Shown here: positions 11,086 to 45,955 of the stretch, piece after piece
Position numbering within the stretch: the stretch's first letter is position 1
Layout: every line of letters starts with the position of its first letter
Assembly (NCBI RefSeq): GCF_000423005.1
Contig: NZ_AUHD01000004.1
Span: 62,001-126,000 of the forward strand
DNA: 64,000 nucleotides
DNA from: Gelidibacter mesophilus DSM 14095
GTDB lineage: Bacteria > Bacteroidota > Bacteroidia > Flavobacteriales > Flavobacteriaceae
Reading direction: 5' to 3'
Position numbers and translations under genes: made by a program
The notes under the pieces: model-generated
Databases searched by the model: none
The model's input: the letters and a program-made list of their open reading frames with translations, nothing else
What the model was told of the DNA's origin: nothing

Positions 11086-11129
11086 TAAAATTATAAAATC
11101 AACACTCCAAAAAACATGATATTTATCAG
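11086..11129 (-). promoter_or_regulatory. Type A CRP/FNR-like site plus promoter for the two-gene Usp operon
   Basis: On the minus strand the element TAATTTTA (11093 to 11086) is one base from TAnnTTTG. The palindrome ATGATATTTATCAG occupies 11116-11129, with TGA and TCA half-sites 6 bp apart and centre at 11122.5. The centre lies 36.5 bp from the last base of the promoter element, the geometry expected of a class II activator. The same spacing recurs at every other type A and B promoter arm listed here. Confidence 0.65.
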
Positions 11130-11278
11130 ACGTTAATAAGACATTGAATTTCTAAAAGTTGAATTCAATAGTGATTGGACAGATCTTTAGCATGTTTAAA
11201 AGCCAGTTTTACCGGATGCACAAAAACATTAAAGCTTACCAACTTCAATATATCTAAAGGATTCGTCGAGTGATTTAT

Positions 11279-11308
11279 AAAAAAAAGCCAGAATATAATT
11301 CCGGCTTT
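11279..11308 (-). terminator. Rho-independent terminator, minus strand
   Basis: Read on the minus strand, AAGCCGGAAT pairs with ATTCTGGCTT around a TAT loop, with one G-U pair, and is followed by a run of T. This is a textbook intrinsic terminator. It lies about 120 bp past the stop of the Usp gene at 11431 and would end both that message and the putative small RNA. Confidence 0.8.
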
Positions 11309-11372
11309 CTTTCGATTTAGAGCTTCCAAGAGCAGAGGAACCCACATAAGGCAAATTCCTCAAGCTTAATTG
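11279..11372 (-). ncRNA. Putative CRP-activated small RNA (about 90 nt)
   Basis: Between two Usp genes sits a complete small transcription unit on the minus strand. It has a type A site at 11408-11421, an exact TAAATTTG element at 11385-11378, and 70 bp later a rho-independent terminator at 11279-11308. The predicted transcript runs from about 11372 to 11279. A 60-codon frame (11347-11165) overlaps it but runs through the terminator and looks like no protein, so a non-coding product fits better. The 5' end is estimated from the promoter element. No known RNA family was recognised. Confidence 0.5.
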
Positions 11373-11377
11373 GACTT

Positions 11378-11421
11378 CAAATTTAAATCATTTGTTCTTC
11401 CAATCCCATGATTTATATCAG
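11378..11421 (-). promoter_or_regulatory. Type A CRP/FNR-like site plus exact TAnnTTTG promoter of the small RNA
   Basis: The palindrome ATGATTTATATCAG (11408-11421, centre 11414.5) is followed on the minus strand by TAAATTTG (11385 to 11378). Centre to last promoter base is 36.5 bp. The site lies just after the stop codon of the preceding Usp gene, so it cannot serve that gene. Its target must be the short unit ending at 11279. Confidence 0.6.
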
Positions 11422-11430
11422 TAGGCGCAC

Positions 11431-12282
11431 TTAGCCTTTCCTATCGTGTAAAACCAAAAATGGAATGCGGGTATGATAGGTGATTTCCTCAACCTTTGAA
11501 TGAAATAAAATGCGTTGAAAGTAATTGAGGTTTTTGGCAACCATAGTAATCAATTTGATATCCCTACTCTGCACAAAGCAGGCAATGCCATCTTCCACTT
11601 TTTTATTGATGATGTTATAGAATTTCGTTTTGAAACGACCAAAAAAATCTTTCAGTACATCCTTATTGTCCTGTTGCCCCATATTTAACTCTTCAGGAGT
11701 ATTAGTTATATGTAAGACCTGTAAGCTTGCACTATGATGGTTCAGAATGTCATAGATTGGTTTTAACATATTGACACCGTAGGTTAAATAGTAATCTGTT
11801 GGAAATACAATATCGTCCAAATTTGTGAATTGCGCCTTTTCTGGCACAACCAAAGTGGTGCATTTAACTTTCTTTATGACGTCAGTGGCATTACTTCCAA
11901 CAATTACTTTTTTTAAGCCACTGGCACCTTTAGTGCCCATAACAATTAAGTCGATTTGTTTTTCATCCACTTGATTACGTATGGATTCAATGAAGAAATC
12001 ATGATCGGATAGTGTGAAAAAATGATGTTTGTTATTTACAGGAAATTGTTCTGAGATACGTTTTAAGAGGGTTCTCAATTGTTTTTTGGCAGGCTTGCTA
12101 ACCGTATTTTCTATAAAATCCTTACTGTCCATATAAGGCAAATCGTCTGCCTTAATAGAGCTCACTGGAACAACATGGAACAAGTAAAAAGTACACGCTG
12201 ATTTCTCAAAAAATTTAACAGCATAAGCTATTGCATTCCAAGAGTTTTCAGAAAAGTCAGTGAGTAATAGTATGTTTTTCAT
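11431..12282 (-). CDS. Universal stress protein (tandem UspA domains)
   Basis: This is the third Usp paralogue, 283 aa. It starts MKNILLLTDFSENSWNAIAY and carries IDLIVMGTKGASGLKKVIVG with SN after it, an intact ATP-loop pattern in the first half. The second half (DIVFPTDYYLTYGVNM) is degenerate. It sits directly downstream of the sensor kinase and response regulator genes but has its own promoter with a type A palindrome at 12340-12353. The terminator at 11279-11308 probably ends its transcript. Confidence 0.9.
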   Translation of the reverse strand: MKNILLLTDFSENSWNAIAYAVKFFEKSACTFYLFHVVPVSSIKADDLPYMDSKDFIENTVSKPAKKQLRTLLKRISEQFPVNNKHHFFTLSDHDFFIESIRNQVDEKQIDLIVMGTKGASGLKKVIVGSNATDVIKKVKCTTLVVPEKAQFTNLDDIVFPTDYYLTYGVNMLKPIYDILNHHSASLQVLHITNTPEELNMGQQDNKDVLKDFFGRFKTKFYNIINKKVEDGIACFVQSRDIKLITMVAKNLNYFQRILFHSKVEEITYHTRIPFLVLHDRKG

Positions 12283-12309
12283 GGCATTCCCTCAATATTG
12301 TAACAAAAA

Positions 12310-12353
12310 CAAACTTAGGGGGATAGTAGCTCTCAAAAAATGATATCGGTCAT
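12310..12353 (-). promoter_or_regulatory. Type A CRP/FNR-like site plus exact TAnnTTTG promoter of the Usp gene
   Basis: The palindrome ATGATATCGGTCAT (12340-12353, centre 12346.5) precedes TAAGTTTG on the minus strand (12317 to 12310). Centre to last promoter base is 36.5 bp. The promoter lies 28 bp upstream of the ATG at 12282. This is the clearest class II layout in the window, with an exact -7 element. Confidence 0.7.
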
Positions 12354-12374
12354 GTTTGAACTTATGGGTAGCCC

Positions 12375-13433
12375 TTAATAGATCTCCTGAAGCTTTTTAA
12401 TATCTAAGATCTTAATATTGCGTCCTTCTATTTCAATCAGGCCTTCTTTTCTAAAAGTTGACATGGTCCGTATCAGGGTTTCCGTGGCGATTCCAGCAAC
12501 ACTTGCCAAATCATTTCTAGAAATTGTAATGGAATCACCTGGTTTTCCGTTCAATTTTTCAGCAAATTTCAATAAGGTACTTGCGGTTTTTTTATTGACG
12601 GAACTATAGGCCATCTGCAATAATTGATCCTTGACAGACGAAAGATCGTCAGTTAATAATTGTATCAACTCTAAGGTTATTTTGTGATTATTATCTAAAA
12701 TCTCCTTCAATTGGTCTTTGGAAATGCCAACCAACTTAACGTTTCTAATGGCGGTAGAAGTTTCTTGATAGGGAATATTTTGAATAAATGAGGTATAACC
12801 AAACAAGGCGTCCTCGTTATGCAAAGCTGTGGTAAGCTCTTTACCTTGCTCATCAAACTTATAACATTTGACAACACCTTTTAAAATAAGATAAATATAA
12901 TTGGAATTCTGTCCTTCCTCATAAATCACATCGCCGTGCTGATAGTCAAAGGTTTCACCATAATCGTCAAAAAAATTCTTCAAATCGTTGAGCGTCCTGA
13001 TTTCATCAGGATTGTTCTGCGGACTTACATCTTGTCGCTTTTCCCTAGTGTCGTTTAAGATAGAAACTTTAGCCAATCGGCTTTTAATGGCATTCACCAA
13101 CTCGTCTTCACTAAAGGGTTTGGTAATATAATCATCTGCTCCAAGTTCCATGCCTTTTCGCACATCTTTTCGTTCTGTTTTCGCTGATAGAAATATGAAG
13201 GGAATAAATTTAGTGTCTTCCTCCTGGGAAAGTATTTCAAAAACTCCATACCCATCCAAGACAGGCATCATGATATCACAAACAATGATATCAGGGTTTT
13301 CGCTTTTTGCTTTTTCCACGCCGATTTCGCCATTTGAAGCCACGATAACTTCGTAATTTGAAAATTCCAGCAGCTCCGCCGTGTTTTCACGTAAAATTGC
13401 ATCGTCTTCTATCAATAAAACTTTTTTTGTCAT
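12375..13433 (-). CDS. Response regulator fused to CRP/FNR-type transcription factor
   Basis: The protein is 352 aa. Residues 1-125 are a receiver domain with Asp10/Asp11, the phosphoacceptor Asp53 in VCDIMMP, and Lys105 in TKPF. Residues about 150-270 are a cyclic-nucleotide-binding-type beta barrel (GDVIYEEGQNSNYIYLILKG). Residues about 280-345 are a CRP winged helix with recognition helix GIATETLIRTMSTFRKEGL. Its Glu and Arg match those by which CRP and FNR read the GA of their half-sites. There is no N-terminal Cys cluster, so no FNR-type Fe-S centre. The gene overlaps the kinase gene by 4 bp (13430-13433), implying coupled translation and a cognate pair. Phosphorylation would replace cAMP or iron as the input. 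Confidence 0.88.
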   Translation of the reverse strand: MTKKVLLIEDDAILRENTAELLEFSNYEVIVASNGEIGVEKAKSENPDIIVCDIMMPVLDGYGVFEILSQEEDTKFIPFIFLSAKTERKDVRKGMELGADDYITKPFSEDELVNAIKSRLAKVSILNDTREKRQDVSPQNNPDEIRTLNDLKNFFDDYGETFDYQHGDVIYEEGQNSNYIYLILKGVVKCYKFDEQGKELTTALHNEDALFGYTSFIQNIPYQETSTAIRNVKLVGISKDQLKEILDNNHKITLELIQLLTDDLSSVKDQLLQMAYSSVNKKTASTLLKFAEKLNGKPGDSITISRNDLASVAGIATETLIRTMSTFRKEGLIEIEGRNIKILDIKKLQEIY

Positions 13434-15307
13434 AGTGCTTTGTTTGGAACGGTTAAAATAAAAGTAGAGCCAATGTTTTCTTCGCTTTTGAAACTTATGG
13501 TACCTCCAAGATTTTCAATGTGCGACTTTACAATATTAAGACCGATGCCTGTTCCTTGCGTGGTCAAAACGTTTTCTGCTCTAAAATAACGGTTAAATAT
13601 ATTTTTTATATCCTTTTCTGGGATTCCAATCCCTGAATCAATAATTTCAAAAATGGTATGGTCAGCGTTCTGGGTGATATTTATAATGACATCGGTATTT
13701 TCTGAGGAATATTTAATAGCATTATGCACCAAATTTGACAAAGCCAATTCGATCGTTTTCTCATCCTGGGTTAAGGAAATGTCATCAATATTTTCAGGGT
13801 ATTTAATCTGTTGTCCTTCCTTTAATAACATATTGGAATTATAGACCACCTCATTGACCACTTTACTCAATCTAAAGGTTGTAAATTTATAATTTACTTT
13901 TCCTGTTTCCAATTTCTCAATCGATAAAAAATCGTTCAATATATTGTTCAAGTAATGGACTCTGTCCGTGATGGTTTTGATGTGCTTATCCCTTTTGGCC
14001 TGTTGCTCTTCCAAGGTATATTTGCTCAATAGCATAGAAGACGTCAGAATACCGCTTAAGGGGGTTTTAAATTCATGAGACACCAAAGATAGAAATTTGG
14101 TTTTCAGCTCGTTGAGCTCCTTTTCTTTATCTAACGCAATTTTGAGCTGATTGGTTCTAAGTTCTACCGTTCTTTCCAGCTCATGGGTATAATTTTTTTG
14201 TCCGGTTATATCTAGAATAATGGCCACAAATACTTGCCGATCTCCTAAAATTGACAATTCTAGATTGACATACACAGGATAAGTAGTGCCATCCTTACGT
14301 TCGTGGACGGCTTCAAACTCTATTTTATCTTCAGTTCCATTTTTTAAAGGCGCTATTAGTGATCTGAATTTATCTTCAGTAAAATCTGGTTTAATAGATG
14401 CCGGAGTAAGTTTTTGAAGTTCTTCTATGGTATATCCCAAGTTTTTTTGTGCGCCATAATTGACATTTATAAATTTCAGTGTATCATAGTCCCACACATA
14501 GATTTCATTAAGAGAATCATCAAAGATCTTAGAAAGATAATTACGCTCTTCTTCTACTTTCTTTCTTTGGGTGATATCATTTTGAATCCCAACAAAATGC
14601 GTAATCTCTCCCTCCTTATTCTTAATAGGATTTATAAACAGGTCATTCCAAAATAAGGTGCCATCCTTTTTGTAGTTTCTCAATATTATTTGACAGCTTT
14701 CACCTTTTTCAATGGCATTTTTCAGTTTTAAAATGCTGTTCTGGTCTCTATCATCACATTGTAAAAATCGGCAATTATTGCCCAAAATTTCATCAGCAGA
14801 ATAGCCCGTTAAGTTTTGGAAGGCAGCGTTAAAATAGATGATGGGATAATCGTTGTGTAGCGCATCGCAAATAACTATCCCGTTACCTGAAGATTGTAAA
14901 GCTTTGCTCTGTAACCTAAGATCTTTTTCAATTTTTTTACGTTCTGTAATATCTATTACGAGCGCCATAACGTAGGTTTTTCCGTTAATCACAAACGGAT
15001 TTAGGCCTACCTCTACCGGAAATTGTTGACCTTCTTTTTTTAAACCGAATAAATCACGGCCGTGGCCCATGTGGCGTTTTTCACTATTTTTATAAAACGA
15101 TTCAAAATGTGCGCCGTGGTTTTGATGGTAACGGGTTGGAATTAATGTATTTAATGGCATATCCATTAAATCATTGGCATCATAACCAAACATGACATCT
15201 GCCGAAGTGTTTGTAGACACTATGTTTTGATGTTCATCCACAATCACAACACCTTCAGAAACGGCATCTGAAAGTATCTGAAAAATATCCTCTCTGTTTT
15301 GAAACAT
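13430..15307 (-). CDS. Hybrid PAS/LOV sensor histidine kinase, candidate blue-light (and possibly haem) sensor
   Basis: The protein is 625 aa, soluble, with no membrane segment. PAS1 (about 10-122) resembles FixL-type PAS; His64 aligns by eye with the FixL haem ligand. PAS2 (about 138-246) is a LOV domain: GNNCRFLQ at 176-183 carries the flavin-adduct Cys179, followed by NYKKDGTLFWNDLFINP and HFVGIQND with the usual flavin contacts. PAS3 covers about 258-368. The kinase core has His411 (SHEFKTP), the N-box around Asn529, DSGIGIP (557-563) and GTGIGL (585-590). Its partner is the overlapping response regulator/CRP fusion. The LOV call is strong; haem binding by PAS1 is speculative. Confidence 0.88.
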   Translation of the reverse strand: MFQNREDIFQILSDAVSEGVVIVDEHQNIVSTNTSADVMFGYDANDLMDMPLNTLIPTRYHQNHGAHFESFYKNSEKRHMGHGRDLFGLKKEGQQFPVEVGLNPFVINGKTYVMALVIDITERKKIEKDLRLQSKALQSSGNGIVICDALHNDYPIIYFNAAFQNLTGYSADEILGNNCRFLQCDDRDQNSILKLKNAIEKGESCQIILRNYKKDGTLFWNDLFINPIKNKEGEITHFVGIQNDITQRKKVEEERNYLSKIFDDSLNEIYVWDYDTLKFINVNYGAQKNLGYTIEELQKLTPASIKPDFTEDKFRSLIAPLKNGTEDKIEFEAVHERKDGTTYPVYVNLELSILGDRQVFVAIILDITGQKNYTHELERTVELRTNQLKIALDKEKELNELKTKFLSLVSHEFKTPLSGILTSSMLLSKYTLEEQQAKRDKHIKTITDRVHYLNNILNDFLSIEKLETGKVNYKFTTFRLSKVVNEVVYNSNMLLKEGQQIKYPENIDDISLTQDEKTIELALSNLVHNAIKYSSENTDVIINITQNADHTIFEIIDSGIGIPEKDIKNIFNRYFRAENVLTTQGTGIGLNIVKSHIENLGGTISFKSEENIGSTFILTVPNKAL

Positions 15308-15426
15308 AGTGTATAATTGGCGGGTTTAAAATTCGTGAAGATACTAACTAATTAAGAATTTTGAAAAAACATCCATTTGAAATAGATTCATTTTAACAAT
15401 ACTATTTAGTAATTGATTTTGGAAAG

Positions 15427-15434
15427 CAAAGGTA
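15427..15434 (-). promoter_or_regulatory. Promoter element of the sensor kinase operon
   Basis: TACCTTTG on the minus strand matches TAnnTTTG exactly, 120 bp upstream of the kinase ATG at 15307. The type A palindrome centred at 15466.5 lies 39.5 bp from it, 3 bp off the spacing seen at all other sites. A second element, TACTTTTA at 15440-15433, is 33.5 bp away. Autoregulation is therefore possible but not in the standard phase. Confidence 0.4.
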
Positions 15435-15459
15435 AAAGTATTGGTTGAGATTATATAAA

Positions 15460-15503
15460 ATGACATAAATCATTTTAAAAAATATGACAATCAATTAGTT
15501 TTG
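15460..15503 (+). promoter_or_regulatory. Type A CRP/FNR-like site plus exact TAnnTTTG promoter of the TerB-like gene
   Basis: The palindrome ATGACATAAATCAT (15460-15473, centre 15466.5; flanks extend it to AAAATGA-N6-TCATTTT) precedes TAGTTTTG at 15496-15503 with centre-to-end spacing 36.5 bp. The promoter element ends 2 bp before an ATG at 15505, which rules that codon out as the start and favours the ATG at 15523. The site also faces the kinase operon on the other strand. Confidence 0.65.
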
Positions 15504-15522
15504 AATGAAATACCCTAAGACC

Positions 15523-15933
15523 ATGAAATCTGAAAATTATTTAAGCTTAGATTTTTATCAAAATCTTGGAAAGCTTTTTTACGCAATTGCCTCTGCAGAC
15601 GGACACGTCCATGAAGCTGAACTAATAACAATTAAGGAAATGGTTAAAAAGGACTGGTTATCTTTTACTTATACAAAGGATCACCCGACTAATGACGAAG
15701 TCCACCAGATCATCGTCACTTTTGACAGGCTCCATAGTGCAGGAAATTCTAACGGCAACCTTCTTTTTAATGATTTTGTTACCTTCAAAAACACACAGAG
15801 CCATCTATTTACCAAAAAAATTAAGGAACTCATTCTAAAGACCGCTATACATATTTCTGAAAGTTTTTCTGGCAAGAACAAATCAGAATTAATGCTTTTG
15901 GCAAAATTAAATATTGAATTAAATAAGGTATGA
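15523..15933 (+). CDS. TerB-like protein
   Basis: From the ATG at 15523 the protein has 136 aa; a longer reading from 15505 would begin before the likely transcript start. The N-terminal half (FYQNLGKLFYAIASADGHVH, then EAELITIKEMVKKDW) has the conserved A-x-A-D-G-x-V-x-x-x-E pattern of TerB-like all-helical proteins. The acidic residues bind metal in characterised TerB. The remainder is helical and unassigned. It is divergent from the kinase operon and shares the palindrome between them, which suggests membership of the same stress response. The exact role is unknown. Confidence 0.65.
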   Translation: MKSENYLSLDFYQNLGKLFYAIASADGHVHEAELITIKEMVKKDWLSFTYTKDHPTNDEVHQIIVTFDRLHSAGNSNGNLLFNDFVTFKNTQSHLFTKKIKELILKTAIHISESFSGKNKSELMLLAKLNIELNKV

Positions 15934-16068
15934 AGATACCAAGTTATTGAAGTTAAAATTTTATGAACATTTCAATTGATGTGGACTCAACCCTGAAATT
16001 AAATCAATTAAAACTTACCAAAAGTCATTACAAAACAGCACGATTTTCATTACAATTCTCATCTCAAT

Positions 16069-16112
16069 GTAACTTATGTTACGTCTCAGGCTGAAGCGAA
16101 GTTCTATATTTG
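16069..16112 (+). promoter_or_regulatory. Type B CRP-like site plus exact TAnnTTTG promoter of the TauE/rhodanese operon
   Basis: GTAAC-TTAT-GTTAC occupies 16069-16082 (centre 16075.5), within the longer TGTAACTTATGTTACG. TATATTTG lies at 16105-16112. Centre to last promoter base is 36.5 bp, the same as at the type A promoters, but the half-site differs, so a second CRP-family regulator is implied. Confidence 0.65.
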
Positions 16113-16128
16113 AATCATTATTGTAATT

Positions 16129-16941
16129 ATGGAATTATTAGAGTTTTTTGGCTATATAAGTGCTTTAGGCATTGGTGTTTCGTTAGGAATCATTGGCGGC
16201 GGCGGTTCTATATTGGCAGTCCCTGTTTTGGCCTATTTGTTTTCAATTGATGAAAAAGCCGCAACGGCCTATTCGTTATTTATTGTTGGCGCTAGCGCAT
16301 TAATTGGGGGACTAAAACAGCATTTTAAAGGCTACGTCGATTGGAAAACAGCTCTTGTATTTGGTATCCCTTCAATTGTTGGTGTAACCCTAGTAAGACA
16401 TCTTGTAGTGCCCGCATTACCAGAGATTCTATTTTCAATTGGCGATTTTGAGTTTACAAGACGGATGGGAATGTTTGGGCTTTTTGCGGTATTGATGATT
16501 CCGGCAGCATTCTCCATGCTTAAAAAAGATAAGATAAACCTTGCAGCTCAAAAAACAAAAATAATTTACAATTATCCCTTGATATTACTTGAAGGTTTGG
16601 TAGTTGGTGCTATTACTGGCATAATAGGTGCTGGTGGAGGATTTCTAATTATTCCAGCGCTTGTCCTTTTAACAAATGTAGAAATGAAAGTTGCTATTGG
16701 TACTTCATTAATTATTATAGCTTTTAAATCGTTGATAGGATTCTTTTTGAGTGATGCGTTAACAATGGCAATTGATTGGTCGTTTTTGCTAATTTTTACC
16801 GGCTTGTCATTTGTAGGGATATTTATTGGTAGTTATTTGAGCAGTTTTATTAACGGTGACAAACTAAAAAAGGGATTTGGCTATTTCATTTTCGTCATGG
16901 CATTTTTTATTTTCTACATGGAATTTTTCGTAGCACCTTAA
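16129..16941 (+). CDS. TauE/SafE family sulfite/organosulfur exporter
   Basis: The 270-residue membrane protein has about eight hydrophobic segments and two internal repeats, each with the family signature: GIIGGGGSILAVPVL near residue 21 and GIIGAGGGFLIIPALV near residue 164. Members export sulfite, sulfoacetate or related anions, or import sulfur compounds. It heads an operon with a rhodanese, a metal-binding HMA protein, a haem protein and a thioredoxin, which favours a sulfur-handling role. Its promoter carries a type B palindrome. Confidence 0.88.
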   Translation: MELLEFFGYISALGIGVSLGIIGGGGSILAVPVLAYLFSIDEKAATAYSLFIVGASALIGGLKQHFKGYVDWKTALVFGIPSIVGVTLVRHLVVPALPEILFSIGDFEFTRRMGMFGLFAVLMIPAAFSMLKKDKINLAAQKTKIIYNYPLILLEGLVVGAITGIIGAGGGFLIIPALVLLTNVEMKVAIGTSLIIIAFKSLIGFFLSDALTMAIDWSFLLIFTGLSFVGIFIGSYLSSFINGDKLKKGFGYFIFVMAFFIFYMEFFVAP

Positions 16942-17035
16942 TTTCTAGCTTCAGAACTATTTTATATGAGAGAGTTGAAATACAGATTATAATTTAGGAA
17001 CCATAACTTATAACAAGTGCTAAAATAAAACCATA

Positions 17036-17383
17036 ATGCAAACTCTGTTTCGTAGAATTTTTGATCTAAAAGCCGATAAGAATGGTACCATAAAGATTTT
17101 GGATGCCAATACATTTAAAGACGCAATCTCAAATCAGAAAGTACAATTAATCGATGTAAGATCTCCTAGCGAATTTAAATCAGGAGCAATTGAAGATGCA
17201 AAAAATATGGATTTTTATTCTGGAAGATCTACATCCGAATTCAATAAACTCGATAAACAAAAACCAGTATATATTTATTGCCAAAGCGGAAACAGACGCC
17301 GACAAACCTCAAAAAAATTATCTGCCATGGGTTTTAAAGAAATTAATGATCTTAAAGTCGGCATCTTAAATTATAATCAATAA
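17036..17383 (+). CDS. Single-domain rhodanese
   Basis: The protein is 115 aa with no signal peptide, so it is cytoplasmic. The family markers are LIDVRSPSEFKSGAI (residues 38-52) and the active-site loop YCQSGNRRR with catalytic Cys82, which carries the persulfide. Rhodaneses move sulfane sulfur from thiosulfate or persulfides to acceptors. It follows the TauE-like transporter by 94 bp and precedes the HMA gene by 12 bp. Confidence 0.9.
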   Translation: MQTLFRRIFDLKADKNGTIKILDANTFKDAISNQKVQLIDVRSPSEFKSGAIEDAKNMDFYSGRSTSEFNKLDKQKPVYIYCQSGNRRRQTSKKLSAMGFKEINDLKVGILNYNQ

Positions 17384-17395
17384 ATTGTTAAAATC

Positions 17396-17665
17396 ATGAA
17401 CACATCAATACTAGTACAAAATCTTAAATGTGATGGCTGTGCCAATACCATAACCACTAAATTATCAACTATTACAAATATTAGTAATATTGTCGTAGAT
17501 GTTGAGGAAAGCAAAATCTCTTTCAATTATAAAAATGTAGACGATGTCCTCCTTGTCAAGGAAAAATTAAAAACTCTTGGGTACCCATCTGTAGAAGACT
17601 CTAATTCCTTAACTTCAAAAGCAAAATCGTTTGTGAGCTGTGCGACTGGTAAACTTTCGAATTAA
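17396..17665 (+). CDS. Small HMA-fold metal-binding protein
   Basis: The protein is 89 aa. The N-terminal LVQNLKCDGCANTITTKL carries the CxxC pair Cys12/Cys15 of heavy-metal-associated chaperone domains, followed by the ferredoxin-like fold strands. A short tail of about 20 residues (SKAKSFVSCATGKLSN) contains a third Cys. In this operon it could bind copper, or use its thiols to carry sulfur. The stop is 10 bp before the next ATG, so the genes are co-transcribed. Confidence 0.85.
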   Translation: MNTSILVQNLKCDGCANTITTKLSTITNISNIVVDVEESKISFNYKNVDDVLLVKEKLKTLGYPSVEDSNSLTSKAKSFVSCATGKLSN

Positions 17666-17675
17666 ATTTAAAAGG

Positions 17676-18305: not shown

Positions 18306-18317
18306 ATAGTTTTAAAA

Positions 18318-18614: not shown

Positions 18615-18646
18615 TAGAGTTGTTTGAAAATTGTTTTGGATATATT

Positions 18647-20503: not shown

Positions 20504-20570
20504 ACTAATGGGAACTTGAAATCTTACCAATTGCAGAGCACTCTTTAAATGATGAAATCAAGAGCTTTGT

Positions 20571-23333: not shown

Positions 23334-23818
23334 CTAACCTTTGTGAAATTTGACATGCATCTTACGAATTTGATCTGCAAGCTCCGGCACGGATCCATCT
23401 ACTTGGATACGGGGAATAATTTCAGGAATAGAAAGTGCTTTTACTGCCGATTCTGGTACTTCTATTTCGGAGAGCCAGGTTGTCAACTGCTCGGTAAACT
23501 CACATATACAATACGGCCCAATCCGACCCAACCGTGTGCTGCGGAACACATCGCACAATGCTCGCCTGAAGTATAGACCACAGCTTTCGCACGATCTTCA
23601 GAAGTCATATGGGTTGCTGCCCAACGGGCAATCTCAAATTCTGGATGACGGGTTTGGTCACCCTTGGTCACCTCCTCATTATGACCTTCGAATAACACCT
23701 TTCCTTCTGCTGAAACGAGTACAGAACCAAAAGGCTGATTCCCAGCATAAAGTGCCTCTTTTGCTAATTCTACACAGCGACGTAAATAGTGTAAGTCCTT
23801 ATCGTCTATATTTTTCAT
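23334..23818 (-). pseudogene. Nucleoside deaminase gene broken by a 1-nt frameshift
   Basis: From the ATG at 23818 the frame reads a cytidine/guanine deaminase-type protein: NQPFGSVLVS, RHPEFEIARWA and the zinc site SGEHCAMCSAAHGW. It then goes out of frame after GRIVYVS, at about 23490. The correct continuation, TEQLTTWLSEIEVPESAV and on to the stop at 23334, is in the next frame. One base appears missing within GTGAGTTTACCGAG, where an S/T-E codon run is expected. It is a real pseudogene or a sequencing error; the rest is intact, about 160 residues in total. Confidence 0.75.
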
Positions 23819-23829
23819 GACGTTCAATT

Positions 23830-37796: not shown

Positions 37797-37857
37797 CCTA
37801 TGAGGCTTCCACCTGTCCGCCGAAGAAGGAAAACCTTGTAGGTATAATAAAACGCAT

Positions 37858-38580: not shown

Positions 38581-38609
38581 AATGAGTTTTCAGTCGCGGT
38601 CGCGGTTTA

Positions 38610-38715: not shown

Positions 38716-38721
38716 AGTGAC

Positions 38722-39828
38722 ATGAAAAGATTCATAGGTTTTATAAAAAAGGAATTCTACCATATTTTCAGGGATAGGCGCTCATTGTTTATTCTCTTCG
38801 GAATGCCCATTGCGCAAATTCTACTGTTTGGATTTGCCATTACCAATGAAATAAATAATGTGGATATCGCTATTTTAGACCATTCAAAAGATAACACCAC
38901 AGAAGAAATCATTAATAAGATTGCGGCATCAAAGTATTTCAGTATCAAACAAATGATCACTCGTGAAGCGGATATTGCTTCAGTTTTCCAAAAAGGACAG
39001 GTGAAAGCTGTTTTAAACTTCGAAAAAGACTTCGGCAGAAACCTCGTCAAAGACCACAAAGCTACCATTCAAATTATTACGGATGCCACAGATCCAAATA
39101 CTGCCAATACGATTACCAATTACGTAAATGCCATCCTTCAGCAGTATCAAAAGGAACTGAACAAGGATATTACTATTGCCTATCAAATAATGCCCCAAAC
39201 CCGTATGGTTTATAATCCAGAACTAAAAAGTGTGTACATGTTCGTTCCTGGAGTGATGACCATCATTTTGATGCTGGTTTCGGCAATGATGACTTCCATT
39301 TCAATTACAAGAGAAAAAGAATTGGGTACTATGGAAATCCTCTTAGTATCTCCATTAAAACCGTTTCAGGTAATTATAGGAAAAGTAATCCCTTATATAT
39401 TTCTGTCTATAATAAATGCAGTAGTTATCGTGATGTTGAGCATTTTCATCTTTAACATGCCAGTACAAGGAAGTCTGTTTTTATTAGGTCTGGAAAGTGT
39501 ATTATTCATCATCACCTCATTAGCATTAGGCATTTTAATTTCAACTATTTCGGCAACCCAACAAACTGCGATGATGATTTCATTGATGGGATTGATGCTG
39601 CCAGTGATCTTGTTATCTGGATTTATCTTCCCTATTTCGAGCATGCCAATGCTGCTCCAAATCATCAGCAATATCATTCCTGCCAAATGGTTTATCATTA
39701 TTTTAAAAGCCATTATGCTCAAAGGTGTAGGAATGCAATTTATTTGGAAAGAAACCTTGATTTTATTGGGAATGACCGTGTTTTTTATCGCATTGAGTGT
39801 TAAGAAGTATAAGATTAGGTTGGAGTAG
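38722..39828 (+). CDS. ABC-2 type exporter permease
   Basis: The protein is 368 aa with the YbhS/YbhR layout: one N-terminal membrane helix (FGMPIAQILLFGFAI), a large periplasmic domain, and five C-terminal helices with REKELGTMEILLVSPLKPFQ and SGFIFPISSMPMLLQ. It pairs with the second permease at 39992 and the two ATPases. The ATG follows 6 bp after the REP-like hairpin. Confidence 0.92.
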   Translation: MKRFIGFIKKEFYHIFRDRRSLFILFGMPIAQILLFGFAITNEINNVDIAILDHSKDNTTEEIINKIAASKYFSIKQMITREADIASVFQKGQVKAVLNFEKDFGRNLVKDHKATIQIITDATDPNTANTITNYVNAILQQYQKELNKDITIAYQIMPQTRMVYNPELKSVYMFVPGVMTIILMLVSAMMTSISITREKELGTMEILLVSPLKPFQVIIGKVIPYIFLSIINAVVIVMLSIFIFNMPVQGSLFLLGLESVLFIITSLALGILISTISATQQTAMMISLMGLMLPVILLSGFIFPISSMPMLLQIISNIIPAKWFIIILKAIMLKGVGMQFIWKETLILLGMTVFFIALSVKKYKIRLE

Positions 39829-39835
39829 ATTGGTG

Positions 39836-39882
39836 GGTAGATGGTAGACGGTAGACGGTAGACGGTAGACGGTAGACGGTAC
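39836..39882 (+). repeat. Heptanucleotide tandem repeat GGTAGAC
   Basis: GGTAGAT followed by five exact GGTAGAC units and a partial unit starts 8 bp past the permease stop. It is a clean microsatellite in a non-coding gap and will vary in length between strains. Confidence 0.85.
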
Positions 39883-39969
39883 TTTAAGTAAAAATAAAAG
39901 AAACAAACGTCCTGCAAGGTTTTAAAAACCTTTGAAGCATATTTATAATGAATTAATAATTAAAAGAGA

Positions 39970-39987
39970 TTCCTGCTTTCGCGGGAA
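39970..39987 (+). repeat. REP-like hairpin
   Basis: TTCCTGC-TTTC-GCGGGAA forms a 7-bp stem with one G-U pair and a 4-nt loop, directly upstream of the permease ATG at 39992. It is nearly the same element as that at 38700-38715. It explains the spurious 20-codon upstream extension of the frame. Confidence 0.65.
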
Positions 39988-39991
39988 TGTT

Positions 39992-41113
39992 ATGAAAACA
40001 ATACTTTACATCATAATAAAAGAGTTCAAGCAAATCTTTAGAAATAAAGGCATGCTTCCTATTATTTTTGTCCTACCCCTGCTCCAACTGGTTATTCTTT
40101 CCAATGCCGCTACTTTTGAGGTTAAGAATATCAAATTCGCTTATATTGATAATGATAAGTCGTCAACATCAAGAGCATTGATAGAAAAATTTAATGCCTC
40201 AACGTATTTTGATCTATTGACGGATTTTCCATCAGAAGCGATTGCTAGTTCAGCAATGTTAAAGGGAGAAATTGATGTCGTTTTAGAAATTCCAAGATAT
40301 TTTGAACGCAATCTTCAAAAAGAAAAACACGGAACTTTAGGAGTTACCATTAATGCGATTGACGGTGCAGCCGCGGGTGTTGAAAATGTCTATATCACAC
40401 AAATCATACAGAACTACAACAAGAATATCAGAACAGATTTGGCACAAATTTCGGATGCTCAAATTCAACCAATAACCATTGAAACCATTCCCCTATTTTG
40501 GTACAATGAAACCTTAAACTACAAAACGTTTATGGTGCCTGGCATCTTCGTTTTGTTAGTGACAATGATCACCCTTTTCCTTTCAGGGATGAATATTGTC
40601 CGAGAAAAGGAAATTGGTACCTTGGAGCAGATTAATGTGACGCCCATAAAGAAAAGCCAATTCATCATCGGGAAACTCTTTCCTTTTTGGGTCATTGGAA
40701 TGGGCCTGCTAACCGTTGGATTACTATTGGCAAGATTGATTTTTAACGTTCCCATGGTAGGCAGTTTGGCGCTCATGTATTTCTACACGTCCATTTATAT
40801 TTTAGTGGTGTTGGGAATTGGGTTATTCATTTCAAATTTCACAGACACCCAACAACAAGCCATGTTTATTGCATGGTTCTTTATGGTGATATTTATCTTA
40901 ATGAGCGGATTGTTTACGCCCATAGAAAGTATGCCAAAATGGGCACAAATCATTACCGAGTTCAATCCCATAAAATACTATGTTGAAGTCATGCGGATGG
41001 TCATGCTGAAAGGCTCGGGGTTTATGGATATTCTTCCTCAACTCATTAAGACTCTCGTTTATGCTATTGTTATGAATGTTTTAGCGGTTTGGAGTTATAA
41101 AAAAACGAATTGA
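39992..41113 (+). CDS. ABC-2 type exporter permease
   Basis: Starting at ATG 39992 (MKTILYIIIKEFKQIFRNKG) the protein is 373 aa. An earlier ATG at 39932 reads through the REP-like hairpin and is rejected. It shares the layout of the gene at 38722, including REKEIGTLEQINVTPIKKSQ and SGLFTPIESMPKWAQ. It completes a TetR-TolC-HlyD-lipoprotein-ATPase-ATPase-permease-permease operon, equivalent to YbhGFSR plus a dedicated outer-membrane channel. Confidence 0.9.
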   Translation: MKTILYIIIKEFKQIFRNKGMLPIIFVLPLLQLVILSNAATFEVKNIKFAYIDNDKSSTSRALIEKFNASTYFDLLTDFPSEAIASSAMLKGEIDVVLEIPRYFERNLQKEKHGTLGVTINAIDGAAAGVENVYITQIIQNYNKNIRTDLAQISDAQIQPITIETIPLFWYNETLNYKTFMVPGIFVLLVTMITLFLSGMNIVREKEIGTLEQINVTPIKKSQFIIGKLFPFWVIGMGLLTVGLLLARLIFNVPMVGSLALMYFYTSIYILVVLGIGLFISNFTDTQQQAMFIAWFFMVIFILMSGLFTPIESMPKWAQIITEFNPIKYYVEVMRMVMLKGSGFMDILPQLIKTLVYAIVMNVLAVWSYKKTN

Positions 41114-41148
41114 TGTCTGTGTCGCCGTTTAATTTAAAATCAAAATAT

Positions 41149-41197
41149 CATTACAACCTATTCAAAAACAGCATACGCTGGTAGATTAGTTGTAATG
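41149..41197. repeat. Long nested inverted repeat after the exporter operon
   Basis: CATTACAAC (41149-41157) pairs perfectly with GTTGTAATG (41189-41197). Inside, CAGC-ATAC-GCTG forms a second hairpin. It starts 36 bp past the last permease stop. There is no T-run, so it could be a rho-dependent end, an mRNA-stabilising stem, or an insertion footprint. Confidence 0.55.
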
Positions 41198-41301
41198 CAT
41201 CACGCTTTAAAATTAACCATTCAAATGTCATAAAATCAGACTTTAAATTGGCAGATTTTGTATAACCCTCAGAAATGTGAACCTGTTATATTTTAATGCT
41301 T

Positions 41302-41345
41302 ATGATAAATATCATAGATCTCCAAAACCTAATTATATAATTTCA
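41302..41345 (+). promoter_or_regulatory. Type A CRP/FNR-like site upstream of lipoprotein/patatin genes
   Basis: ATGATAAATATCAT (41302-41315, centre 41308.5) is a perfect 14-bp palindrome. At the standard distance of 36.5 bp the promoter element is TAATTTCA (41338-41345), two bases off TAnnTTTG. The gene at 41430 is 84 bp further on. The promoter element is weak but the palindrome is the best of its type in the window. Confidence 0.55.
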
Positions 41346-41429
41346 CATGGGTAGAACCAAATATCCAAACTTGCGAATAATCGAAGTTTTTAGAAAACAG
41401 ATCCATCACAAAAAACTACCTCACATCCA

Positions 41430-42296
41430 ATGAAAAATATATGCCTCGTATTGCTGACGCTTTTGTTTTTAAATTGTAAAAATGATCCGCGTCAGGAAAG
41501 TGAAAATGAAATTGATATACATGAGTTAATGGAATCACAGTCTAAAGATTCGGTTAAATTAGGAGATCAGGATCTTAAGTCTCAAGAAAAGTCACTAGCC
41601 ATAGAATTTAAACAAAACGAGCTGATGGAGAAAAAGGATCAAAGATCAGCATTTCAAGAATTGATTATTGATAACAGCTATGTTTTAAATAAAGCAGACT
41701 TTACAATCAATTTTAAGTACCCATTATTGAACGAGTCTCTCAATACCAAAAACAAAAATTTTAATGACTTTATCAATATGTATTACGTCAATGTATCAAA
41801 AACTATTTCTGAAATAAAGGAAAGCAAATTGTTATGCGATAGTATAGCCGCCTCAAAATTTAGGGAAGATCGATTTATAGATTATAAAATCTATATCGTG
41901 AATGACCAGCTTGTAAGTGTGCTTTTTTACAAGGAGAATTTTTATTCAGGTGCCATGCATCCCAGCTATTCTTTTGATGGCTTCAATTTTGATTTAAACA
42001 AAGGTGTTTTCTTAACTTATGAGGACATTTTTGTTCAAGGTACGGAAGATGAATTATTGGACATCATTAATGAAAACATACGAAAAGGAGATTTCTATTA
42101 TGAATGTTGGGAAATATCCTCATCCGATTTTTTTATGGCTAAAAACAACTTCGTTTTGAATGAAACTTACATCGCTTTTTATTTTGATGATTGTGTGATG
42201 TGTCCCTCCTACACTGGCACTTACTCTATAGAACTGCCATTGGTAGATTTACTCTCTGTTTTGAGAAAATCGAATTCAAATCCTCTCGTTTTTTAA
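41430..42296 (+). CDS. DUF3298 (RsiV-like) lipoprotein
   Basis: The protein is 288 aa with a lipoprotein signal (MKNICLVLLTLLFLNCKND). A Lys/Gln-rich linker leads into a DUF4163/DUF3298-type domain: KADFTINFKYPLLN, then FYSGAMHPSYSFDGFNFDLN and LTYEDIF, ending with YIAFYFDDCVMCPSYTGTYS. The family is named after anti-sigma factor RsiV, which binds lysozyme; most members are uncharacterised surface lipoproteins. A type A promoter lies upstream. Confidence 0.8.
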   Translation: MKNICLVLLTLLFLNCKNDPRQESENEIDIHELMESQSKDSVKLGDQDLKSQEKSLAIEFKQNELMEKKDQRSAFQELIIDNSYVLNKADFTINFKYPLLNESLNTKNKNFNDFINMYYVNVSKTISEIKESKLLCDSIAASKFREDRFIDYKIYIVNDQLVSVLFYKENFYSGAMHPSYSFDGFNFDLNKGVFLTYEDIFVQGTEDELLDIINENIRKGDFYYECWEISSSDFFMAKNNFVLNETYIAFYFDDCVMCPSYTGTYSIELPLVDLLSVLRKSNSNPLVF

Positions 42297-42417
42297 ATAA
42301 GGTCTATAATAAAAGTAAAATATCTTTATTGTTCTCAAAGATTAGCCATAAATTATGTCCTATATTCTCAATTATTGAATATAATGATGCATCAGTTGTA
42401 ATTCAAATAAGAAATAA

Positions 42418-43200
42418 ATGAACATTGGTTTGGTATTATCTGGAGGTGGCATGCGAGGTGCGGCTCATATAGGTGTTATAAAGGCCTTGGAAGAACACGG
42501 CGTTTCACCAACCCATATTGCTGGTTCAAGTGCGGGTACCATCGTTGGCGCCCTTTACGCCTATGGCCATTCATGGGAAGCTATTATAGCATTTTTTAAG
42601 AATGTGCAGTTTATGAGCTTAATGAAGTTTGCACTCAACAAACCTGGTTTTATTGATGCAGAAAAATTTTATACTGATTTCAATGGGTATTTAAAAGACG
42701 ATGATTTTTCATTTTTGAAAAAGAAACTTTTTATAACCGCCACCAATATTTTGAATGGGAAACCCAAAATTTTTGATAAAGGTGAATTGATTAAACCAGT
42801 GTTGGCTTCGGCTGCCTTCCCTGGATTATTTGCTCCGGTAAAGATTAAAAGTTCCTATTATATTGATGGAGGCGTTCTCAATAATTTTCCGGTGAATGCC
42901 CTAAAAAATAAATGTGATGTTATTATTGGCGTTTACGTAGATGGTTTTGATGCCCTTACCATAAAAGACCTAAAACATTCACATCACGTGGTTGAACGAG
43001 CCTTTAAGCTAAAATCTGTTAAAGAAGACCTAGCCAAATTCTCCGACTGTGACTTGGTAATATATCCAACAGAGTTGAACAAATTCGCTACTTTTGATAA
43101 GAAAAACATTGATGAAATTTTTGAAATTGGCTATAAGGCGACCAATAAAATTTTTGCCACCGAAGATTTTAAAAGACTAGAGATTTCTCTTAAGCAGTGA
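42418..43200 (+). CDS. Patatin-like phospholipase
   Basis: The protein is 260 aa, cytoplasmic. It has the oxyanion loop GGGMRGAAHIG (residues 9-19), nucleophile Ser38 in GSSAG, and the catalytic Asp150 in DGGVLNNFPV. These are all the parts of an active patatin lipid acyl hydrolase (RssA/YchK-like). It follows the DUF3298 lipoprotein gene after 121 bp, which may be spanned by the same transcript. Confidence 0.92.
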   Translation: MNIGLVLSGGGMRGAAHIGVIKALEEHGVSPTHIAGSSAGTIVGALYAYGHSWEAIIAFFKNVQFMSLMKFALNKPGFIDAEKFYTDFNGYLKDDDFSFLKKKLFITATNILNGKPKIFDKGELIKPVLASAAFPGLFAPVKIKSSYYIDGGVLNNFPVNALKNKCDVIIGVYVDGFDALTIKDLKHSHHVVERAFKLKSVKEDLAKFSDCDLVIYPTELNKFATFDKKNIDEIFEIGYKATNKIFATEDFKRLEISLKQ

Positions 43201-43266
43201 TAATTTTTAACCTGACCCGCTAAAAATAACAAAGGTCATATCAACATCGCTCAAACCTTGAGAATC

Positions 43267-43289
43267 ACCTTCAGAAATAGGAAGGTTTT
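43267..43289 (+). terminator. Probable terminator between convergent genes
   Basis: ACCTTC-AGAAATAG-GAAGGT is a 6-bp stem followed by TTT, in the 113-bp gap after the patatin stop and before the stop of the minus-strand glucokinase gene. The T-run is short, so strength is uncertain. Confidence 0.5.
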
Positions 43290-43313
43290 GCTCTTAAGAA
43301 TTTAAGACAAGTT

Positions 43314-44399
43314 TTATGAATCAGCATCAGCTCCAATTCCCATAGCACCATACATTGCAGCTCCAAATAAGGGTGTTTTTTCATTTAGGATGACCTTCAC
43401 GGACATCATTCTGAGCAACGTTGCCATCCGTCCCGTTTGAACAAAATTAGTGGTAAAGACATCCTTATCAATACCTTTTATAATTTTAGGCACAATACCT
43501 CCGCCAATATAAATCCCTCCAGTTGCTTTCAATTTTAGAGCCATTTGAGAAGCTTCTATAGCAAGAAATCTGAGGAAAATAGTCAACGTCTCGGAGCAAA
43601 CGGGATCTCGGCCGTCCAAAGCAGTTTTTGTAATCAGTGCGGCCGGATCTTCATTAGCAAATCTTTCTTTCAACCATATCGGCATAGGATTACTTCTGTA
43701 AGCTCGTAAAAACTCGTGTATGTCTACAATCCCTTGACCTGACAATAATCTTTCCCAACTTACATCACCATATTTCTGAAATATAGAGTTATAAATCTCT
43801 ACATCCAGACTGTGGTGTGGACTAAACGAGCAATGACCTCCCTCTGAAGCGAAGGGACGGTATTGATGGCCATCCCAAAATAAACCAGCTTCGCCCAAAC
43901 CTGTACCAGGTGAAACAATGGCGGCATTGCCAGAGATACTTTTTCCCGCTATTAAAGTTTCAAAATCATCGTCCTTCAAGGTTGTCAATCCAAAAGCGTT
44001 CGCCTCTAAATCATTGATCACAAATACAGATTTTACGTTTAAGGCTTTGCTGATGGCTTTGCTATCTATCTTCCACGGAAAGTTTGTGCCCTGAACAACA
44101 CCTGCTATTACCGGACCTGCAACGCCAAGGCAAATAGCATCCATCTTATGGTCGCTTTCAACCTGAAACTCATTAAACAAATCTATACACAAATCATACT
44201 TTTTTGTTTCGAAAGATTGCTCTCTTAATAATTCCAAATGCCCATCACTAATTTTAAAAAGTGCCAAATTTGTCTTGGTGCCACCAATATCCGCCGCTAA
44301 AACAATTCCTCCTATAGGAGGGTGGCCTGTGTTCAAAAAAACCAAAGGAATTTGTCCCTTTCGCATAAACGGAATTTTTAAACGCTGAACTTTTCCCAT
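43314..44399 (-). CDS. glk: Glucokinase (Glk type)
   Basis: The protein is 361 aa, slightly longer than E. coli Glk because of a 30-residue N-terminal lead. GIVLAADIGGTKTNLALF is the phosphate-binding loop, FVINDLEANAFGL holds the glucose-binding Asn-Asp pair, SPGTGLGEAGLF follows, and SEGGHCSFSP is the Glk-specific motif. This is the non-ROK glucokinase family, phosphorylating glucose with ATP in the cytoplasm. It stands alone. The 258 bp upstream show no clear promoter. Confidence 0.88.
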   Translation of the reverse strand: MGKVQRLKIPFMRKGQIPLVFLNTGHPPIGGIVLAADIGGTKTNLALFKISDGHLELLREQSFETKKYDLCIDLFNEFQVESDHKMDAICLGVAGPVIAGVVQGTNFPWKIDSKAISKALNVKSVFVINDLEANAFGLTTLKDDDFETLIAGKSISGNAAIVSPGTGLGEAGLFWDGHQYRPFASEGGHCSFSPHHSLDVEIYNSIFQKYGDVSWERLLSGQGIVDIHEFLRAYRSNPMPIWLKERFANEDPAALITKTALDGRDPVCSETLTIFLRFLAIEASQMALKLKATGGIYIGGGIVPKIIKGIDKDVFTTNFVQTGRMATLLRMMSVKVILNEKTPLFGAAMYGAMGIGADADS

Positions 44400-44657
44400 A
44401 GAAATTTTCTTTTTGAATGGATCTTATCTGATCATGTTTTTATGAATATATGACCCATATAAAACCATAAATTCTCCTTAAAGTTAAATAATTTGATGAG
44501 AACCATAGCTTCTAATATTTTATATTTCGAATACAGCTCCTCATCAAAAAATGAGTCTCTTAAAAACCAAGCAATTTAAAGATTTTACGACGCTGTATAA
44601 ATTTCATTAAGAGACACAAAGATTATAAGATTCAGAAATTTTCCAGTTGTATAATGC

Positions 44658-45734
44658 TTATTTCTTCATCACAATAGTTCTATAAGGATATGGAATTTCA
44701 ATTCCTTCCCTATCAAAGCGTTTTTTGATACTCTCCAAAACATCACATTTTAAAGAAAATGAATCCTGATAATTGCGTGCCCAAGCCCATGCTCTTATCG
44801 TAATGGAAAAATCGTTTAGTGCTGTTAGCGCTGTTTTTACTAGTGGTACATCATTCTGCCTATCAAATGGGGAACGGTTATCATAAATAAGGGGGTGATT
44901 TTCACATTCTTCTTGCATAATTTGTTTTGCCAGATCAATGTCGCTATCATAGGAAATCCCAATTTCAATCCGTTCGCATATTTTGTGCTCGTCCAAATCG
45001 AAATTTATCAGTTTTTCTTTATTGATAATGGCATTTGGAATGACAATCATTTTATTTTCAAAATTTCTAATGACGGTATGACGTAAAGTAATATCCACTA
45101 CTGTGCCCACCATCGTGTCTGATACCAAAACTCTATCGCCAATTTTAAAAGGTTTAAACGCGATAATAAATAAGCCGCCAGTTACGTTGGCCAAAGCTTC
45201 CTGCGCTGCAAAACCAACAATCAACGTCAAAATACCTGCACCTCCAATGGCCGTTTGGGTTACTTCTCTCAGGGATGGGAAGGCATATAAAAAAAGTAGT
45301 ACACCAATAAATCCAACAATAAACACCCCGATATACCGCAAAAACTTAAAGTTAGTGGGATCCTGTTTATTTTCAATCTTTTCCGAGATCTTATAATTGA
45401 ACCACAAATTGCTTACCATAACGGCGATAATAGTCACAACGGATACCACTCCTAAATAACTAAAGAGCTTGAAATAGTCTTTCAACAGGGCCTCCCTATC
45501 TAAATCAATAAAGGTAAAGCTCAACGCAATGGCACCTAAAACCAACCATAACAGTGTTAAGATGTGTTTAATTAAAACTATCGGTCTTATTGGTGCTCCA
45601 GGAAGAATTTCTTTTCTCCTTTTATTCAACCAATTGTATAATACTCTGGTCAATATATAAAGCACGACAACGCTAGTAATCACAACACCGCTGTAAATAA
45701 TGTCCGATTGATAGGTATGTATAAATTTGTTCAT
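44658..45734 (-). CDS. MscS-type mechanosensitive channel
   Basis: Starting at ATG 45734 (MNKFIHTYQSDIIYSG) the protein is 358 aa. Several N-terminal helices lead to the pore helix AIGGAGILTLIVGFAAQEALANV followed by FKIGDRVLV and the MscS beta domain, ending with the GIEIPYPYRTIVMKK tail. The channel releases solutes on hypo-osmotic shock. A long leader of about 140 nt would separate it from the type A promoter at 45882-45925. Confidence 0.9.
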   Translation of the reverse strand: MNKFIHTYQSDIIYSGVVITSVVVLYILTRVLYNWLNKRRKEILPGAPIRPIVLIKHILTLLWLVLGAIALSFTFIDLDREALLKDYFKLFSYLGVVSVVTIIAVMVSNLWFNYKISEKIENKQDPTNFKFLRYIGVFIVGFIGVLLFLYAFPSLREVTQTAIGGAGILTLIVGFAAQEALANVTGGLFIIAFKPFKIGDRVLVSDTMVGTVVDITLRHTVIRNFENKMIVIPNAIINKEKLINFDLDEHKICERIEIGISYDSDIDLAKQIMQEECENHPLIYDNRSPFDRQNDVPLVKTALTALNDFSITIRAWAWARNYQDSFSLKCDVLESIKKRFDREGIEIPYPYRTIVMKK

Positions 45735-45881
45735 AATTTCAAAAAGTTTTATCACTACAGAAGACTAATTTTTATGAAATCTGTTATCATTTCATCACTT
45801 TTATACATTCATTCTTATTCTCTAGAGACATTAAGCTCTTCAAAATATATGATTAACGCGATTGGTTATGATGGAAATAAC

Positions 45882-45955
45882 CAAAATTAGCGATTGGTAA
45901 AATCATGGCAAATGATAAAGATCACTTCCTTTGGTATTTGAATGCTATACATTTA
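45882..45955. promoter_or_regulatory. Divergent type A CRP/FNR-like site with promoters on both sides
   Basis: The palindrome ATGATAAAGATCAC (45912-45925, centre 45918.5) has TAATTTTG on the minus strand (45889 to 45882), exact consensus, and TACATTTA on the plus strand (45948-45955), one base off. Both ends lie 36.5 bp from the centre. One dimer could thus activate MscS leftwards and the saccharopine-dehydrogenase-like gene rightwards. The rest of the 454-bp gap shows no gene; a 12-bp palindrome TTTACTAGTAAA sits at about 46113. Confidence 0.65.

Follow-up and report, generated by a model that had tools for sequence, protein, structure and literature searches.

The window analysed here, a stretch of 64,000 nucleotides from the genome of Gelidibacter mesophilus DSM 14095, contains six short palindromes that stand at one fixed distance from a promoter-like element, and among these sites lies a gene pair encoding a response regulator with a Crp-type DNA-binding domain (the receiver-Crp regulator, 12375-13433) and a histidine kinase (13430-15307). 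The explanation that we favour, with a probability of roughly 0.72 for the whole of it, is that the palindromes are class II FNR-type sites, that they mark a low-oxygen regulon, and that the receiver-Crp regulator is most likely its direct activator in this genome. The palindromes would bind FNR-type dimers at position -41.5 of sigma-A promoters, and the kinase would phosphorylate the regulator and thereby switch it on.

Promoter geometry in the window

A first-pass annotation of this DNA, made from the letters alone, had described six palindromes of the form ATGAT-N4-ATCAT, each centred 36.5 bp from the last base of a TAnnTTTR-like element. Seven such arms (a palindrome together with its element) were proposed, two of them sharing a palindrome. 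All six centres (11122.5, 11414.5, 12346.5, 15466.5, 41308.5 and 45918.5) are where they were said to be, and in each of the seven arms the last base of the 8-bp element lies exactly 36.5 bp from the centre. The wording of the two motifs needed adjustment. Only one palindrome (41302-41315) has the exact form and the other five carry one mismatch each, so that strict ATGAT-N4-ATCAT was rejected as too narrow a definition, whereas the core TGAY-N4-RTCA matches all six; likewise, the element is a strict TAnnTTTR in six of the arms, the exception being the one-mismatch element at 41308.5. The arms are:

11086..11129, minus strand: class II arm of the second Usp unit, recognised by sequence and spacing; palindrome 11116-11129, element TAATTTTA at 11086-11093
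11378..11421, minus strand: orphan class II arm; palindrome 11408-11421 (centre 11414.5), element TAAATTTG at 11378-11385
12310..12353, minus strand: class II arm of the first Usp gene, directly behind the regulator gene; palindrome 12340-12353 (centre 12346.5), element TAAGTTTG
15460..15503, plus strand: class II arm of the TerB-like gene; palindrome 15460-15473 (centre 15466.5), element TAGTTTTG
41302..41345, plus strand: arm of the lipoprotein/patatin unit; palindrome 41302-41315 (centre 41308.5), element TAATTTCA
45912..45955, plus strand: arm located 233 bp ahead of the saccharopine-dehydrogenase-like gene; palindrome 45912-45925 (centre 45918.5), element TACATTTA
45882..45925, minus strand: divergent arm of the MscS gene, sharing the palindrome at 45918.5; element TAATTTTG

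The striking feature is the spacing and not the palindromes by themselves. Six strict arms at 36.5 bp were observed in the window, compared with a mean of 0.03 and a maximum of 1 in 200 dinucleotide shuffles. Cores of the type TGAY-N4-RTCA were also more frequent than in 200 such shuffles (16 versus a mean of 5.5, largest 14). One-mismatch palindromes alone were only modestly enriched (12 versus 5.8 expected), and no element lies 36.5 bp from a further exact ATGAT-N4-ATCAT, found at 6655-6668. According to the excerpted text of PMC9723704, the sigma-A box TAnnTTTG of Flavobacterium psychrophilum occupies positions -12 to -5. With the end of the element placed at -5 on this basis, the palindrome centres fall at -41.5, which is the class II position for an FNR-type palindrome.

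The same spacing elsewhere in the genome and in relatives

The pairing was then counted over the 4.43 Mb of the whole genome with gaps of 9-39 bases between core and element. Among the 71 matches listed, 21 had a gap of 23 bases (36.5 bp), compared with a mean of 1.67 over the other 30 gaps; 15 of these 21 are from parts of the genome other than the window, with a Poisson P of about 3e-10. A search at the fixed gap gave 22 arms; this is the fuller count (22 versus 21), as the variable-gap search conceals some overlapping matches. The base after the core is T in 18 of the 21 matches, which yields the ATCAT form. A second, small bump of six matches was seen at 22.5 bp; since C1:516136, one of the six, also qualifies as an arm at 36.5 bp, part of the bump seems to represent the same sites. 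Gap-0 matches were set aside as chance, because the T that closes the palindrome also serves as the first letter of TA.

The same peak was evident around the regulator gene in other bacteria. The best 80 of 314 relatives of the regulator, from Gelidibacter, Winogradskyella, Kordia, Polaribacter, Algibacter and others, provided 1.33 Mb of surrounding sequence. These loci contain 294 arms at gap 23, with at least one arm in each of the 80, compared with 0-10 at every other gap from 0 to 60 (a mean of about 3). The claim that such constancy is unlikely to arise by chance is thus borne out by the shuffles and by single-spacing peaks in this genome and its relatives, and the comparison with relatives likewise upholds the sites. 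A downstream frame could be assigned to all but 17 of the 294 arms. For the remaining 277 the targets were Usp genes (152), TerB-like relatives (44), the kinase gene (7), the cco unit (7) and MscS relatives (2), while 61 had a downstream frame that matched no reference protein; these shares are local ones, since the 80 loci surround the regulator. For 238 of the 277, no more than 50 bp separate the element from the start codon.

Individual arms of the window are conserved as well. Most of the 80 loci, and also two genus mates, G013 and G244, have a counterpart of the arm at 12346.5 in the corresponding position; both mates possess an orthologue of the arm at 11122.5 too. G244 also has a strict arm upstream of a lipoprotein relative, in support of the arm at 41308.5.

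Genes under the sites

The genes outside the window give the set its functional meaning. Arms in this genome precede a radical-SAM protein, which its sequence identifies as hemN and which is followed by a Usp-like gene. They also lie upstream of a nirK-like multicopper-oxidase/cytochrome c protein, of a cytochrome c that has nosZ farther downstream, of the fused CcoNO of a cbb3 oxidase, and of an nrfH-like protein of NapC/NirT type that neighbours an nrfA-like one; the names hemN, nirK, nrfH and nrfA are partly our own reading. Other arms precede formate-tetrahydrofolate ligase (fhs), a membrane protein of 50 residues, a CBS protein, four Usp genes in two further clusters, and proteins that match nothing in Pfam; one of the 22 arms (C8:162345) has no target frame. 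The further Usp clusters, with two 36.5-bp arms each, lie at L034:5896-7894 and L035:3324-7968.

G013 has 15 sites and G244 has 14, and targets were compared for 15 and 12 of them, respectively. Both genomes carry arms at the orthologues of hemN, nirK, the cytochrome preceding nosZ, cco, CBS and Usp genes; the fhs and nrfH arms are matched in G013 and that of the small membrane protein in G244. The sites would thereby unite the cbb3 oxidase, oxygen-independent haem synthesis, reduction of nitrite and nitrous oxide, Usp proteins and perhaps a small RNA. In F. psychrophilum, oxygen limitation induces the cbb3 oxidase and haem synthesis (PMC9723704, as excerpted), and the words 'Fnr' and 'Crp' do not appear in the main text of that paper. 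The sites very probably mark a low-oxygen and denitrification regulon in flavobacteria, which sharpens the view taken in the first-pass annotation that nothing but a stress or energy response links the functions of the set.

The receiver-Crp regulator and its probable kinase

The gene pair among the sites was not listed in the first-pass annotation. Its parts are as follows:

12375..13433, minus strand: likely regulator of 352 amino acids with receiver, cNMP-type and Crp-type helix-turn-helix domains (Pfam)
13430..15307, minus strand: likely kinase of 625 amino acids, first gene of the pair, with PAS, LOV, PAS, HisKA and HATPase domains (Pfam)
14943..15307, minus strand: first PAS domain of the kinase, FixL-like; best solved matches FixL and DosP, positions of the haem His and the distal Arg kept
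14540..14932, minus strand: LOV domain of the kinase with GNNCRFLQ; best solved matches are LOV proteins (1e-34)

The regulator contains both PF00027 (cNMP-type) and PF13545 (Crp-type winged helix), which places it in the Crp/Fnr superfamily. Its receiver residues Asp53, Ser83 and Lys105 are present in all 81 aligned rows and a kinase gene is adjacent, as for a two-component response regulator, and E, I and R of the recognition helix are likewise found in 81 of 81. The N-terminus is the receiver and there is no CxxC cluster before the cNMP domain, so that the protein is not an iron-sulphur (Fe-S) FNR; nor is it a FixJ, as its output is Crp-type with no LuxR-type output. It would rather combine a FixJ receiver and a FixK DNA-binding output, merged in one protein. 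A kinase with a SHEFKTP-type box adjoins the regulator gene, upstream of it, in the relatives' loci examined (L086, cut by a contig end, was left out of the kinase alignment). Beyond the family, relatives of the regulator were found at 1e-50 in 32 of 198 genomes of a phylum sample, the present genome included. PMC8510549 predicts carbon sensing for Flavobacteriales Crp/Fnr homologues, and the word 'receiver' is absent from the excerpted text. We found no description of this system or of a low-oxygen regulator of Flavobacteriaceae in the open-licence literature, which is weak evidence as only open-licence papers were covered.

With regard to the signal, the first PAS domain (PAS1) resembles the haem oxygen sensor of FixL, its nearest solved chains being FixL (1d06, 1.5e-10) and then DosP, and the column of the FixL haem His is occupied by His in 78 of 80 kinases. 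The middle PAS domain is, by its best matches and its GXNCRFLQ-type motif, which includes the reactive Cys, a LOV domain. This motif is present in four of the 80 loci, three of them from Gelidibacter, and was not found in G013 or G244. As the LOV domain is rare and the FixL-like PAS1 is widespread, oxygen is likely to be the old input and light a possible added one.

Co-occurrence with two kinds of regulator

Four proteins of this genome give Crp-type helix-turn-helix matches above the family cut-off: the receiver-Crp regulator, an FNR-like protein encoded beside ccoI, and two more, encoded on C19 and C4. The FNR-like protein has five Cys in 30 of 30 rows, the fragment from this genome included (unfiltered; best 30 of 157 genomes), and a helix-turn-helix match, as expected for a putative Fe-S FNR. 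It probably reads the same sites in many relatives, and its gene is interrupted by two in-frame stops here. G013 has an intact copy of 225 amino acids, whereas in G244 there was no FNR-like gene genome-wide at 1e-20 and none beside ccoI. The recognition helix reads E-S-A-I-R in 27 FNR-like rows, which were filtered for CxxC and 'AT...' and therefore lean towards agreement, and E-x-x-I-R is common to both regulators. The helix Ile occupies the position of Ser212 in E. coli FNR; that it is connected with the altered outer base of the palindrome is a guess. The broken gene has a palindrome of its own at 22.5 bp from a TAnnTTTR element (L032:19058-19069; G000 C1:544057), where a bound dimer could block the promoter.

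A total of 249 genomes of the family were scored for the receiver-Crp regulator (at 1e-30), the FNR-like fragment (at 1e-20) and the sites. The former matched in 114 genomes, of which 113 were used (G002, with partial matches only, was left out), and this set includes more distant relatives of about 42% identity. The latter matched in 157, including the broken copy of the present genome, and is thus intact in 156 at best. The numbers of sites were:

receiver-Crp only, 45 genomes: median 15, range 6-37; median 16 in genomes of at least 3 Mb
FNR-like only, 89 genomes: median 9, range 1-36, with at least five sites in 76; median 9.5 in genomes of at least 3 Mb
both regulators, 68 genomes: median 25, range 4-53; median 25 in genomes of at least 3 Mb
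neither regulator, 47 genomes: median 0, range 0-29, with fewer than five sites in 41; median 1 in genomes of at least 3 Mb

The class medians indicate that either regulator goes with sites and that there are more sites with both. A reversed-pattern control gave 0.11-0.19 per Mb across the four classes. All 45 genomes with the receiver-Crp regulator only, nearly all of different genera, have at least six sites. Of the three genus members, G013 carries both genes, G244 the regulator without the FNR-like gene, and the present genome, with 22 sites, the regulator and a broken FNR-like gene. Together with the spacing peaks, this co-occurrence with FNR-type regulators strongly supports the proposal that the sites belong to a CRP/FNR-type regulon with class II geometry.

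Weighing the alternatives

Several observations speak against the explanation that we favour. Genomes with only the FNR-like gene also bear sites, so the sites are no proof of a receiver-Crp protein, and those seen here may be left over from an FNR that was recently lost. The loss is itself uncertain: interruptions occur in other genes of this genome too, and the two stops may therefore stem from errors in the sequence. At least five sites are present in six of the 47 genomes with neither regulator, four of which are 73-88% complete and two 99%. Moreover, the 249 genomes are related and the counts are not corrected for this, and the column of the FixL distal Arg contains Arg in only 57 of 80 kinases. 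The sites in genomes with only the FNR-like gene would agree with the Fe-S FNR-like protein being the true master, the receiver-Crp regulator serving the neighbouring Usp genes or having another role, and the sites being inherited from a time of intact FNR; the conserved Cys residues and the position of the gene next to ccoI fit this too. But the genomes with the receiver-Crp regulator only keep their sites without exception, and G244, without an FNR-like gene, retains arms at hemN-, nirK- and cco-like genes and at the nosZ unit, which leads us to regard FNR as master as unlikely. A third Crp/Fnr protein as the reader of the sites is much less probable still. The helix of the C19 protein is similar (ETVIR), and G138 (10 sites) and G205 (5 sites), both 99% complete, have only distant Crp relatives and neither main regulator at the cut-offs; yet a stop seems to interrupt the C19 gene inside the helix-turn-helix match, the C4 protein has a differing helix, and most genomes with neither regulator have few sites. 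The interruptions in the FNR-like gene, C19 and other genes hint at many pseudogenes or sequence errors in this genome.

It is also conceivable, although we rather doubt it, that the regulator pair does read the sites and that its main signal is something other than oxygen: light or flavin redox through the LOV domain, or nitric oxide through a PAS domain. The reactive-Cys motif in this kinase and the nir and nos targets could be taken in this sense. Against light stands the rarity of the motif, as the sites occur in all of the 80 loci and in both genus mates; against any signal other than oxygen stand the closeness of PAS1 to FixL and DosP and the nearly invariant haem His. As for chance or base composition, one-mismatch palindromes are indeed fairly common in the window, but the single-spacing peaks and the shuffle counts refute this explanation and the orthologous arms speak against it, leaving it a negligible probability.

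Candidate small RNA and other features of the window

The orphan arm at 11414.5, whose next long frame is 307 bp away, points at a candidate small RNA:

11279..11373, minus strand: candidate small RNA of about 95 nucleotides; predicted start 5 nucleotides past the element, intrinsic terminator at 11279-11305

A search of 9000-16200, the candidate included, against Rfam gave no match, and a 60-amino-acid ATG frame overlaps the candidate. A strict scan of the 80 loci, requiring a terminator and no frame of 60 codons after the arm, recovered 15 arms in 14 loci and missed the candidate of the window owing to this overlapping frame. Eight of the 15 candidate RNAs contain CTATTAATC, which is absent from that of the window. 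The terminator-ended candidates sharing it lie behind the first Usp gene in L091, L095, L121, L122, L128, L140, L153 and L155, and may represent a small-RNA family under the same promoters.

The genes assigned to the arms are:

9346..10188, minus strand: Usp gene (Pfam Usp), second in the unit begun at 11122.5
10201..11070, minus strand: Usp gene (Pfam Usp) behind the arm at 11122.5
11431..12282, minus strand: Usp gene (Pfam Usp) behind the arm at 12346.5
15505..15933, plus strand: TerB-like gene, an open reading frame labelled so in the first-pass annotation
41430..42296, plus strand: lipoprotein with a weak DUF3298 match
42418..43200, plus strand: patatin-like phospholipase (Pfam)
44658..45755, minus strand: MscS channel (Pfam)
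46189..47262, plus strand: saccharopine-dehydrogenase-like protein (Pfam)

The TerB-like frame has no Pfam or NCBIfam match. Its arm lies upstream of the kinase gene and points divergently from it, and a transcription start predicted at 15508 points to the ATG further down, at 15523, as the start codon. For the saccharopine-dehydrogenase-like protein, a search run without a positive control gave no match in any of six relatives. Elsewhere in the window, two adjoining frames (54608-55978 and 53666-54601, minus strand) appear to make up one multicopper-oxidase-like gene with an in-frame stop, and a deaminase-like frame (23483-23827, minus strand) stops early and seems to be continued in another frame.

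Significance and relation to known systems

Flavobacteriaceae are abundant in the sea, and the fixed geometry offers one short pattern by which the regulon, including the nitrous oxide reductase units, can be read out family-wide. If an Fe-S sensor has been swapped naturally for a phosphorelay sensor on the same sites, regulator replacement becomes directly testable.

In promoter design there is a close likeness to the FNR/Anr-type regulons with class II promoters, namely those of E. coli FNR and Pseudomonas Anr. These share the TGAT-N4-ATCA core, the centre at -41.5 and targets in low-oxygen respiration along with Usp proteins. The differences lie in the outer bases (ATGAT-N4-ATCAT here, TTGAT-N4-ATCAA there), in the Bacteroidota box TAnnTTTG, and in the likely regulator, which has a receiver and lacks the N-terminal Cys cluster. 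A further likeness is to the Fe-S FNR-like protein found in Flavobacteriaceae: it goes with the same sites as the receiver-Crp regulator and has the same E-x-x-I-R helix, but conserved Cys take the place of the receiver. The candidate RNA can be likened to FnrS, a small RNA of enterics, in being a short terminator-ended transcript predicted from an FNR-type promoter, a likeness of layout. As in LOV histidine kinases, a GXNCRFLQ LOV domain precedes the kinase core; here the kinase is otherwise FixL-like and has two further PAS domains.

In its components the system is also reminiscent of the FixL-FixJ-FixK cascade of rhizobia (abstracts of PMC6710368 and PMC7888657), with a candidate FixL-like haem-PAS kinase, a response regulator, a Crp/Fnr output, and cbb3, haem and denitrification targets. 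Unlike in that cascade, receiver and Crp/Fnr output are found in one protein, with no separate FixJ-type LuxR output in the regulator. A bolder version, which we put forward tentatively and with the odds against it, is that FixL-FixJ-FixK merged into one pair that displaced Fe-S FNR as master of low-oxygen respiration and denitrification in part of the Flavobacteriaceae, and that, in the Gelidibacter-like lineage at hand, the LOV domain of the kinase lets light and oxygen together gate the regulon and an FnrS-like RNA. The parts are all of known kinds; what would be new is the merged regulator, the sites shared by two regulators and the pattern of replacement.

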